Of a stretch of DNA of 17,238 nucleotides, positions 10,288 to 15,710 are shown one piece after another (position 1 is the stretch's first letter; each line of letters opens with the position of its first letter). The DNA is from Methanomassiliicoccales archaeon (lineage in GTDB: Archaea; Thermoplasmatota; Thermoplasmata; Methanomassiliicoccales; UBA472), in NCBI GenBank assembly GCA_028679935.1, contig JAJRAL010000037.1, positions 1 through 17,238 on the forward strand. The letters are read 5' to 3'. Under the pieces are notes generated by a model that was not told the origin of the DNA, did no database searches, and worked only from the letters and a program-made list of their open reading frames with translations. A program made the position numbers and the translations under genes.

Positions 10288-10330
10288 CAGACGGCGGGTC
10301 TTCGGCTACGTCCCTTCGGGCGAAACGTCC

Positions 10331-10336
10331 ATATAT
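10331..10336 (-). promoter_or_regulatory. Probable TATA box of endA
   Basis: ATATAT preceded on the minus strand by CCCCG lies about 47 nt before the endA ATG. It is separated by 11 nt from the palindrome at 10348-10370, so a protein bound to the palindrome would sit next to the BRE of this promoter rather than on its TATA box. Confidence 0.5.
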
Positions 10337-10347
10337 CGGGGCCGCCT

Positions 10348-10370
10348 GTTTACAACTTCAAGTTGTTAAC
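10348..10370. promoter_or_regulatory. Operator palindrome 1, promoter of the Phr/HSR1-like regulator
   Basis: A 23-bp palindrome, GTTTACAAC-N5-GTTGTTAAC, ends 11 nt before the regulator's ATG. The arms pair at 10 of 11 positions; the core ACAACTT-C-AAGTTGT is perfect. The likely TATA box of the regulator (TTTACAAC, about 10349-10356) lies inside it. A bound dimer would therefore block TBP or polymerase, as expected for autorepression. The same layout recurs before hsp20 at 11373-11395. Confidence 0.75.
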
Positions 10371-10381
10371 GACGTGAGAGA

Positions 10382-11029
10382 ATGAGCGAGCTGCCAAATC
10401 TGGACATGCTGCTGTCGGTGATCGAGAACCCGACCCGGAGGAGGATCCTGATGGCCCTCGTCAGGGAGCCCCACTATCCTCTGCAGCTGTCGAAGGAACT
10501 GGGCATGAGCCAGCAGGCCGTGATGAAGCACCTGAAGCTGCTGGAGACCATGAACCTGGTGCGTTCGTACCCCGAGCAGAGCGACCAGGGTGGGCCCGCC
10601 AGGAAGCGATACGTTCCGACGACGAAGTTCACGATCATCGTCGACTTCGGCCCCGGGCTCTTCGATGCCGAGCTGGTCACGGTGGCGATAAGGGATGTCG
10701 ACCGTGAGGAGGAGTACGCCGAAGAGGGCGCCAACGAGCTGATGGGGGTAGGTGAGAAGGCCAACCAACTGAGGGACATGGTCGCCGGCATTGACAGCGA
10801 GCTTGAGGGCCTCCAGACATCGAGGGATCGGCTCATCGAGATGAAGGAAAGGGCACTGGAGGAGGCCGCCCACCTAGCCGAGAATCAGATAGACGATTAC
10901 CAGGTCAGGCGCATCGTCTTCGAATACATTAAGAGGCCGGAACTGACACCTGAGCAAGTAGCCGAGCTCTTGGACCTCCGCGACGAGGTGGTCCATGAGA
11001 CGATCAGCAAACTGAGGAGCGTGAAGTGA
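10382..11029 (+). CDS. Phr/HSR1-like heat-shock transcriptional regulator (ArsR-type winged helix)
   Basis: A 215-residue DNA-binding protein. The winged helix-turn-helix spans about 8-80 (NPTRRRILMALV, then LSKELGMSQQAVMKHLKLLE as recognition region, then a wing ending in KRYVP). A β-rich middle is followed by a coiled coil (about 130-168) and a C-terminal helical domain. This order matches Phr of Pyrococcus and HSR1 of Archaeoglobus, which repress hsp20, AAA ATPase genes and themselves until heat shock. Here the same targets lie directly downstream (hsp20 at 11428, cdc48 at 11972), and palindromes sit in both promoters. Identification as the repressor of this locus is inference from architecture and context. 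The ATG is 11 nt after the operator, with a leader of only a few nt. The stop abuts the start of the next gene (TGAATG). Confidence 0.87.
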   Translation: MSELPNLDMLLSVIENPTRRRILMALVREPHYPLQLSKELGMSQQAVMKHLKLLETMNLVRSYPEQSDQGGPARKRYVPTTKFTIIVDFGPGLFDAELVTVAIRDVDREEEYAEEGANELMGVGEKANQLRDMVAGIDSELEGLQTSRDRLIEMKERALEEAAHLAENQIDDYQVRRIVFEYIKRPELTPEQVAELLDLRDEVVHETISKLRSVK

Positions 11030-11341
11030 ATGGCCAAGGAGAAAGGATGTGCCGAGGACTGCGCGAAGCAGCTCGAGAAGATGCTTGAGAACTTGGGCAA
11101 AGAGCTTGACAAGGCCGCCAAGAGCGTGGACCGCGCGGGCAGACAGGTCTATGAGAACATGCCCAAGGAGCTCAAGGACGCGGGCAAGCGTCTGAACAAT
11201 GTCGCAGACGCGGTGGCCAAGGATGTCGGGCAGGACGTGCCGAAGATCCAGAAGGAGATCGACAACCTGGGCAGAAGGATGGAGCAGTACGTCCGCGATG
11301 TCCGTGATGCGATGAGGTCGGAGCGCAAAGGCAATAAATAG
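11030..11341 (+). CDS. Small helical, probably coiled-coil protein, unknown function
   Basis: A 103-residue hydrophilic protein that is almost wholly amphipathic helix, rich in Lys, Asp, Glu and Ala, with hydrophobic residues at three/four spacing (for example QLEKMLENLGKELDKAA near the N-terminus and IQKEIDNLGRRMEQYVRDV near the C-terminus). It starts MAKEKGCAEDC; the two Cys at 7 and 11 could cross-link or bind metal. There is no signal peptide or membrane segment. Its ATG directly follows the regulator's TGA, with GAGGAG in the end of that gene, so both are made from one autoregulated transcript. The position suggests a role in stress response or in control of the regulator, but no family is recognised and apolipoprotein- or LEA-like resemblance may only reflect helix composition. 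Confidence 0.75.
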   Translation: MAKEKGCAEDCAKQLEKMLENLGKELDKAAKSVDRAGRQVYENMPKELKDAGKRLNNVADAVAKDVGQDVPKIQKEIDNLGRRMEQYVRDVRDAMRSERKGNK

Positions 11342-11372
11342 AAGTTCTTACATTCTCTGATGCTAGTCACAA

Positions 11373-11395
11373 GTTATCAACTAATGGTTAATAAC
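11373..11395. promoter_or_regulatory. Operator palindrome 2, promoter of hsp20-cdc48-hsp20
   Basis: A 23-bp palindrome, GTTATCAAC-N5-GTTAATAAC, matching operator 1 at 15 of 23 positions, including all outer GTT/AAC bases and the CAAC-N5-GTT core. One more base on each side (A and T) also pairs. The probable TATA box of hsp20 (GGTTAATAAC, about 11386-11395) is inside it. A further half-site, ATTAAC, is at 11403-11408, 10 nt beyond the GTTAAT of the palindrome. It lies 32 nt before the hsp20 ATG. Confidence 0.75.
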
Positions 11396-11427
11396 TACGA
11401 CCATTAACGCCTGGACAGGGTGGAAAC

Positions 11428-14155
<2,728 letters not shown>

Positions 14156-14159
14156 TGGC

Positions 14160-14684
14160 ATGGCCAGGGATGAGCGGAAGAGAAGAGGCGACTGGAACGA
14201 CTTCTTCGAGGAGTTCGACCAGGAGTTCAGCGAGATGAGGGATCGGTTCGACCAGATCATGGAGGGCTTCGTGAACGGGGAACTCGATGCAGAGAGCAGG
14301 CCCCTCATCTACGGCTTCTCGATGCGGGTCGGCGGCGATGGCGTCCCGGTGATCCAGGAGTTCGGCAACACGACGGGCGCGACCCAGACCGGAGAGAAGG
14401 ATCTGCTGCGGGAACCGCTGACCGACATCATCGAATCGGACGACAAGGTTCGGGTGATCGTGGAACTCCCCGGCGTCGAGAAGAATGACATCAGGCTGAA
14501 TGCCGACGGCCGGACGCTCGAGATCGAGGTCGAGAACCCGGACAAGAGGTTCAGCAAGCACCTCGACCTGCCTTGCGATGTCCGCCCGGGCAGCGCGAAG
14601 GCCAACTACAAGAACGGAGTCTTGGAGGTCGTCCTCACCCGGAGGGCACCGAAGCGGAAGGGGAAGGCGATCCCGGTCGACTGA
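14160..14684 (+). CDS. Second, divergent Hsp20/alpha-crystallin family protein
   Basis: A 174-residue protein. The N-terminal arm is acidic and helical ([20 protein letters not shown], 11-30) and a linker includes [19 protein letters not shown] (51-69). The alpha-crystallin core follows (about 85-162), with [20 protein letters not shown] and the closing [11 protein letters not shown] block. The C-terminus has an I-x-V docking motif (AIPVD). It is shorter in the core than the hsp20 at 11428 and only distantly similar, so it is not a recent duplicate. Its ATG lies 4 nt after the cdc48 stop, with a GAGGTGAT ribosome site formed by the end of cdc48, so translation is probably coupled. It may supply substrates to the ATPase or act as a mixed-oligomer partner; this is inference. 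Related proteins are sometimes labelled GvpH-like, but no gas vesicle genes are present. Confidence 0.88.
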
Positions 14685-14718: not shown

Positions 14719-14726
14719 TTATATAG
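14719..14726 (+). promoter_or_regulatory. TATA box giving a leaderless mRNA for the HTH regulator gene
   Basis: TTATATAG is centred about 26 nt before the GTG start codon at 14748, the normal TATA-to-start distance, and no Shine-Dalgarno precedes the GTG. The box lies between two inverted 7-bp arms (CAGGCAG at 14694-14700 and CTGCCTG at 14732-14738). Confidence 0.65.
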
Positions 14727-14747
14727 AAGTACTGCCTGCTAAGTAGC

Positions 14748-15710
14748 GTGCACAGGGAAGAGCTGATCGCCCAGGTGAGGGAGACCCTCGGCCGCGCTGG
14801 CTTCTACGTCTCGAAGCCGCTGAACATGCGCAGCATCAGCTTCGACATCGTGGCGAGGAGGGACAAGTCGCTCCTCATCATCAAAATCCTATCGAATGTT
14901 GACGCGTTCTCCAAGGAGAACGCCGACGAGATGAAGGCGCTCGCCGAGGCGTTGCAGGCCTCACCCCTGATGATCGGAGAGCGCTCCGGCTCGGGGCCGG
15001 TGGAGGACGGCATAGTCTACAGCCGATTCTCAGTGCCGATCATATGCGTCCAGACCCTCTCGGACTATCTGCTGGAGGGCGTCCCGCCATTCATCTTCGC
15101 CGCGCCGGGCGGGCTATACGTCAAGCTCGACAGCCTCGCGCTCCGGAAGCTGAGGGACGAGAGGGGGATCAGCCTCGGGAATCTCGCCGAGGTCGCTGGC
15201 GTCTCGCGCCGAACGATCCAGATGTACGAATCGGGCATGGGGGCGATGATCGAGGTCGCCGTCCGACTCGAGGATTACCTGAAGCAGCCGATGGTCGTCC
15301 CGGTCGATATCCTGGACTACCGTCACTCGGAGCAAATGCCGACGCCTCCGGACCCCGCCTCCATGGATGATTTCACGAGACAGATCTTCGTCAGACTGAA
15401 GGAGATGGGCTTCTCCGTCGTACCCACGGCGAAGTGCCCCTTCGAGGCGCTCACGAAGGACCATGAGGTGCTCATCCTGACGGGAGTGGGGCACAAGGAG
15501 ACGAAGCTGGTAGAGAAGGCCAAGGTCGTCTCCGACCTCGGCAAGATCACGGAGACGCGTTCGGTCATCTTCATCGAAAGGGTGAAGTCAAGGTCAAGCA
15601 TCGAGGGCACGGCTCTAATCGGGAGGGACGAGCTCAAGGTCATGGACGAAACGACCAAGCTCTTCCATCTGGTCGAGCAGAGAAGCAGTGACTCCGATGC
15701 GAAGCGCTAG
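14748..15710 (+). CDS. Archaeal HTH regulator with nuclease-like N-terminal domain
   Basis: A 320-residue member of the archaea-specific 'putative HTH-type transcriptional regulatory protein' family. The N-terminal part (1-120) resembles a restriction-endonuclease-like fold with SFDIVARRDKSLLIIKIL (31-48). A Cro/CI-type helix-turn-helix follows (about 128-180: LRKLRDERGISLGNLAEVAG, then VSRRTIQMYESG). The C-terminal domain (about 205-310) seems to repeat the α/β fold, with ILTGVGHKETKLVEKA and VIFIERV. The target genes are unknown. The GTG start at 14748 fits a leaderless transcript. The 3' end overlaps the next gene, so the two proteins are likely made together. Confidence 0.85.
   Translation: MHREELIAQVRETLGRAGFYVSKPLNMRSISFDIVARRDKSLLIIKILSNVDAFSKENADEMKALAEALQASPLMIGERSGSGPVEDGIVYSRFSVPIICVQTLSDYLLEGVPPFIFAAPGGLYVKLDSLALRKLRDERGISLGNLAEVAGVSRRTIQMYESGMGAMIEVAVRLEDYLKQPMVVPVDILDYRHSEQMPTPPDPASMDDFTRQIFVRLKEMGFSVVPTAKCPFEALTKDHEVLILTGVGHKETKLVEKAKVVSDLGKITETRSVIFIERVKSRSSIEGTALIGRDELKVMDETTKLFHLVEQRSSDSDAKR

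Follow-up and report, generated by a model that had tools for sequence, protein, structure and literature searches.

Two candidate operators of a probable autoregulated Phr/HSR1-type heat-shock regulon in a Methanomassiliicoccales archaeon and their conservation among relatives

A review lists no more than two archaeal heat-shock regulators identified to date (PMC9133787). In Archaeoglobus fulgidus, HSR1 is encoded in an operon with hsp20 and autoregulation has been proposed for it, according to the same review (PMC9133787), and CDC48 is a target of HSR1 according to another paper (PMC5852551); in Pyrococcus furiosus, Phr sites precede HSP20 and VAT1, as stated in PMC10746257. The locus described here has these traits in common with the two systems. 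The Phr site, given in the review as TTTA / TGGTAA / AAAA over 29 bp, is unlike that of the present locus, and the HSR1 site is given there as CTAAC-N5-GTTAG, just as an earlier note on this DNA had it (PMC9133787).

The window, that is, the whole 17,238-base stretch of DNA analysed, carries a cluster in the order tRNA intron endonuclease (divergent), regulator, 103-aa ORF, hsp20, CDC48, second hsp20 and PRK04140 HTH protein. On the + strand, the gene of a 215-aa Phr/HSR1-type winged-helix regulator (10382..11029), assigned by profile, PDB and Foldseek matches, is followed by a small coiled-coil-like ORF of 103 aa (11030..11341) that is present in part of the relatives, by hsp20 (11428..11925; PF00011, 84.8 bits), by the gene of a CDC48/VAT AAA+ ATPase (11972..14155; PF02359, PF00004) and by a second hsp20-family gene, hsp20b (14160..14684; archaeal Hsp20 NF041800, 165 bits, cut-off 140), at whose own start no operator was found. 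The PRK04140 HTH gene lies at 14748-15710. The linkage of the regulator to hsp20 and cdc48 recurs in similar order in many relatives and was not seen in the loci of Marine Group III (MGIII).

The regulator has an N-terminal ArsR-type winged helix (PF12840, 54.6 bits, cut-off 27; PF01022, 43.2 bits, cut-off 22), and its homology to Phr extends beyond the DNA-binding domain, two traits of the Phr/HSR1 type (arCOG01684). Its best PDB match is P. furiosus Phr (2p4w; E 2.3e-16), which also ranked first by Foldseek, with about 28% identity in the structural alignment, and its named close homologues are from Methanomassiliicoccales. The regulator scored 67.9 bits against the NCBIfam model of Phr proper (NF053602), below the cut-off of 320, which was passed in none of 41 related genomes.

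Operator 1, GTTTACAAC-TTCAA-GTTGTTAAC (10348..10370), lies ahead of the regulator gene in its own promoter, and operator 2, GTTATCAAC-TAATG-GTTAATAAC (11373..11395), lies in the hsp20 promoter; both are written on the + strand and, as features, carry no strand. The two 23-mers are present as the earlier note had claimed, with 15/23 bases common to both, and the proposed consensus GTTWWCAAC-N5-GTTRWWAAC fits both, as counted by eye. ACAAC-N5-GTTGT and TCAAC-N5-GTTAA form the two cores. The general pattern GTTNNNAAC-N5-GTTNNNAAC has exactly two matches in the window, and none of 200 dinucleotide shuffles of the window contained an exact match. Allowing up to three mismatches added no more than two places, both of them weaker: 479, and 11359, which overlaps operator 2 at a 14-bp shift. 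A further ATTAAC, noted earlier as a half-site after operator 2, is present at 11403-11408, but as a functional half-site it was rejected, being one base off the 14-bp register; no counterpart was seen among the relatives' hsp20 promoters listed, and it is not conserved.

Seventy-nine loci were gathered by similarity of the regulator protein alone, and the window brought the number of promoters to 80; the loci are labelled as Methanomassiliicoccales, related Thermoplasmata or Euryarchaeota, and MGIII or Poseidoniia, and one as a bacterium. In 77 of the 80 regulator promoters (150 nt upstream, window included), the operator occurs with at most three mismatches (0 in 25, 1 in 16, 2 in 21, 3 in 15, 4 in 2 and 6 in 1), counts that are not independent, the loci being related, and that depend on start codons picked by script, some of which may be off. 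The 56 distinct sites outside MGIII hardly vary at the inner AAC and GTT, and conservation of the outer GTT/AAC is strong. The MGIII regulator promoters carry a variant, mostly TACAAC-N5-GTATACAAC, and all 16 have the degenerate form only, with 3-4 mismatches. A good site is absent from the regulator promoters of L014 and L026; in L026 the regulator sits behind cdc48, and operator sites precede cdc48.

In the second promoter, that of hsp20 or cdc48, a site of at least 10 bits occurs in 22 of the 23 loci tested (L001-L024 minus two too short, plus the window), the exception being L005 with 7.8 bits. Where cdc48 follows hsp20 or the regulator, its start, like that of hsp20b, had best places with 3 to 7 mismatches, which is background-like, except for true sites at the cdc48 promoters of L019, L022 and L023; the apparent hsp20b exceptions in L015, L020 and L024 arose where the script's start is really that of the hsp20a gene. 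The motif is thus kept before the regulator and before hsp20/cdc48, and the lack of conservation in relatives' promoters that the earlier note had named as counting against an operator was not what we found.

Three-unit arrays with a 14-bp period were rejected, as the enrichment of a third unit is only modest, and counts that take in sites shifted by 14 bp come out too high, such sites having one arm in common: at least 4/6 bases match at -14 in 8 of 22 second promoters, versus 0 to 3 of 22 at 23 other offsets, and in regulator promoters the count is 13/62 at +28, versus 0 to 9 at other offsets. Separately, Methanoplasma-type loci (e.g. L027, L034, L039, L046, L051) carry in the regulator promoter the array ATTAAC-N5-GTTAGTAAC-N5-GTTAACAAC, in which a third half-unit stands upstream in the 14-bp register, with variants in L038, L044 and L063.

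The exact pattern has 27 matches in the 79 loci and the window together (706,221 bases); 25 of them lie no more than 150 nt upstream of a regulator start, and the other two (window 11373 and L020 5880) precede hsp20. Of 24 sites with one mismatch in the same set, 17 are in regulator promoters and seven in the second promoter, where six precede hsp20 or cdc48 and the seventh (L001) lies at the same distance on a contig too short for the following gene to be named. From 55 regulator sites of other organisms, with the window excluded, a symmetrised matrix was trained; it ranked the two window sites first, with 31.7 bits for operator 2 and 26.5 bits for operator 1. The next window places scored 7.0 bits at 11359, which overlaps operator 2 in the 14-bp register, and then -1.9, leaving a gap of about 28 bits to the next non-overlapping place. 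Over 671,596 positions outside regulator promoters, the top 24 matches to the matrix all lie in the second promoter, in 21 loci, and the 25th precedes cdc48 in L026.

Three scans with the exact pattern, together covering 162 whole genomes of relatives, gave 49 places, versus three for the reversed control (G032, G041, G084). Assigned by hand from gene context, the 49 places comprise 33 before regulator genes, one before hsp20, five before thermosome genes, three before grpE (MGIII) and one before htpG, 43 altogether, and six unrelated ones. Four of these six have almost the same 23-mer and lie, in three genomes, at the start of one and the same oxidoreductase-like gene (Pyr_redox_2), one lies within an AMP-binding-enzyme gene and one in an AT-rich stretch. 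Scattering over the genome, the other observation that would have spoken against the earlier proposal, was thus not seen for the exact pattern in these 162 genomes, and the exact form of the candidate operator is rare enough for defining a putative regulon genome by genome. With one mismatch allowed, 18 genomes gave 50 places, 19 of them in regulator, hsp20 or cdc48 promoters; the 31 places outside the cluster compare with 28 for the reversed control, and the one-mismatch scan was rejected as a regulon finder. One such near-palindrome (G002:C109:11299-11321, L120) stands just ahead of the gene for a class I lysyl-tRNA synthetase, where it may have arisen by chance.

Archaeal promoters have a usual TATA-to-start spacing. 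The likely TATA boxes of the regulator, CCATATATC (10329..10337, + strand), and of hsp20, AATAAATAG (11333-11341, + strand), were assigned by reading of the sequence. The earlier note had let the operators overlap the TATA boxes; by position, both lie instead downstream of the likely boxes, operator 1 by about 10 nt (edge to edge) and operator 2 by about 31 nt, and the layouts of relatives are comparable. Given the usual spacing, the regulator start is predicted to fall inside operator 1, and operator 2 would lie just downstream of the hsp20 start; both predicted positions are suited to blocking RNA polymerase. The review describes the Phr site as overlapping the transcription start, with a blocking mode like that considered here (PMC9133787). 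Of 77 regulator promoters, 18 have a TATA-like centre 25 nt ahead of the first operator base; in 13 of 15 MGIII sites this distance is 7-8 nt, and the remaining promoters vary. At thermosome and htpG promoters, the operator stands directly upstream of TATA, where it could block TBP/TFB or activate.

The operator reaches further chaperone genes in some relatives, whose families were confirmed by Pfam for one example each (Cpn60_TCP1, HSP90, GrpE and HSP70). Among 17 scored MGIII grpE promoters (18 loci, one too short), it is exact in 13 and has one mismatch in two; the two promoters without a match each belong to an additional, less closely related grpE-like gene in a genome that also has a match. 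In all 15 matching promoters the operator ends 2 nt ahead of the ATG, and dnaK follows grpE in the MGIII loci read. Thermosome promoter regions have a site with at most two mismatches in 9 of 100, a set in which one promoter (L210/L249) was scored twice and some genomes contributed two paralogs; the sites are in eight genomes (G030, G033, G035, G084, G090, G095, G140 and G145), and in G090 the thermosome gene is followed by grpE and dnaK, the latter named by reading. No thermosome operator with at most two mismatches was scored from G001-G005 and G007-G009, the regulators of which are among those most similar to that of the window. Four of 23 htpG promoters have sites with 0, 1, 2 and 2 mismatches, and six more have three mismatches, which is weak (5 to 30 of 200 shuffles equal them). 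At these frequencies of sites with at most two mismatches, 9/100 and 4/23, the thermosome and htpG were both ruled out as general targets. According to a 2023 paper, thermosome subunits are outside the regulons of Phr and HSR1 (PMC10653856); unlike this description, the predicted operator stands at thermosome-grpE-dnaK, grpE-dnaK and htpG in some lineages, which is new.

Many thermosome leaders (e.g. L211, L215, L223 and L227) carry, downstream of TATA, an inverted repeat of the type CTAGC-N5/6-GCTAG with a varied loop, possibly another operator or an RNA element.

A second element, the core sequence TTATATAGAAG, combines TATA with GAAG and is mostly restricted to stress promoters. In the window it lies before the start (14748) of the PRK04140 HTH gene (14719..14729, + strand), and a variant, in which the hsp20 TATA box is joined to the stress-associated extension (AATAAATAGAAG; 11333..11344, + strand), overlaps the end of the upstream ORF; it is also found in L357-L372. 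Sixteen places in six whole genomes comprise 10 before thermosome genes, two before htpG, one before a LonB-like gene, so named by reading as Pfam gives AAA-type matches only, one before an SRP RNA and two without assigned feature. A looser form has 52 matches in 706 kb of loci, versus nine for the reversed control, and 44 of the 52 precede PRK04140, the regulator or hsp20a. Alternatively, the element may be a very strong general core promoter. A dedicated TFB paralog is unsupported: each of 10 genomes has one strong zinc-ribbon match (73-80 bits), and a second match is barely above the cut-off in three of the 10. In L361 and L363, downstream of position 1501, two sequences that follow the element resemble each other over roughly 90 nt and show by eye a closing inverted repeat, with no Rfam match, possibly an unknown small RNA.

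It is conceivable, though we consider it rather doubtful, that in Methanomassiliicoccales and MGIII an HSR1-type repressor serves as master chaperone regulator, the 23-bp operator and TTATATAGAAG forming a two-element heat-shock promoter code read with a single strong TFB. In such a code, the operator would act from downstream of TATA at the regulator, hsp20 and cdc48 genes and from upstream at thermosome-grpE-dnaK and htpG.

The position of the sites, their conservation, the restriction of exact sites largely to stress genes and the homology of the regulator to Phr are direct observations. For the window, we propose with a probability of about 0.9, taken as one reading, that both palindromes are candidate operators of the adjacent Phr/HSR1-type repressor, autoregulated and released by heat. 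Conservation and the restriction of the exact pattern support what the earlier note had suggested, namely that a heat-shock operator with N5 core spacing and extended outer arms probably serves a Phr/HSR1-like regulon under autoregulation. We infer that the regulator binds as a dimer with a repressive effect and that heat is the signal. The dimer would recognize both the inner AAC-N5-GTT core and the outer arms, GTT/AAC. Bound at normal temperature, it would cover its own start site at operator 1, giving autoregulation, and at operator 2 it would sit just past the hsp20 start, keeping RNA polymerase from being recruited or from escaping. Heat would weaken binding, and the regulator gene, cdc48 and both hsp20 genes would be released.

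Promoters tend to be richer in AT than genes, which gives some room for chance palindromes; this explanation is scarcely credible, being contradicted by the 0/200 shuffles, by the dozens of loci that conserve the site and by the genome-wide restriction. The inverted repeats could also be RNA hairpins in leaders, acting as RNA thermometers or stability elements instead of DNA operators, and the sites at the regulator and hsp20 do lie in or near the transcribed leader. Among 83 distinct sites, pairs 5/19 and 10/14 covary beyond independence (reached by 1 and 3 of 2000 shuffles, respectively), as does 6/18 more weakly (32/2000); however, a dimer site also predicts symmetric covariation, there is no excess at pairs 11/13, 1/23, 2/22 and 3/21 and little at 4/20 (144/2000), and the conserved feature is mainly base identity (AAC/GTT). 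As the thermosome and htpG sites, lying upstream of TATA, should moreover not be transcribed from that promoter, hairpins are highly improbable.

Another factor, such as the PRK04140 HTH protein, might bind the palindromes while the regulator acts elsewhere. PRK04140 is encoded nearby in the window, and 21 of the 52 matches to the stress-associated core element in the loci precede its gene; yet it had no match in the MGIII loci or L019-L024, as searched in the loci, where the operator nevertheless accompanies the regulator, grpE or cdc48, and the operator precedes the regulator's own gene, as autoregulation predicts. We consider this very unlikely. That the operators serve activation instead of repression is unlikely as well. 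The homologue SurR (PF0095) is a dual regulator, and the sites at thermosome and htpG border on the stretch ahead of TATA that activators occupy. The two window sites, however, are downstream of TATA in a blocking position. PMC5852551 words Phr/HSR1 as inducing targets, hsp20 and CDC48 among them, which we count against repression, whereas PMC9133787 and PMC10746257 describe Phr, and HSR1 in its proposed model, as repressors.

The candidate repressor operator is readable from sequence alone and in some lineages reaches Hsp60, Hsp70 and Hsp90 genes, offering a testable case of a small ancestral stress regulon growing in methanogens and their marine relatives. A full-text search of the open-licence literature found no paper apparently about the operator in these groups. 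Compared by its published description, HSR1 has in common with the window a palindrome with an AAC-N5-GTT core before the regulator gene, the spacing being identical. In the window cores, the bases next to AAC/GTT are not those of the HSR1 site, conserved outer GTT/AAC arms give a 23-bp site, and some relatives extend the operator to thermosome-grpE-dnaK and htpG. Phr (2p4w) is the nearest solved relative by sequence and first by Foldseek; SurR, a sulfur-metabolism regulator by its NCBIfam name and, of the two relatives with a solved structure, less close than Phr, is homologous over the protein's length (residues 11-211, E 2.8e-07). We regard the sites as genuine and conserved, and as probable operators of a heat-shock regulon of the Phr/HSR1 type. 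This kind of regulon is known, whereas the lineage, the extended 23-bp form and the apparent spread to large chaperones in some relatives are new.
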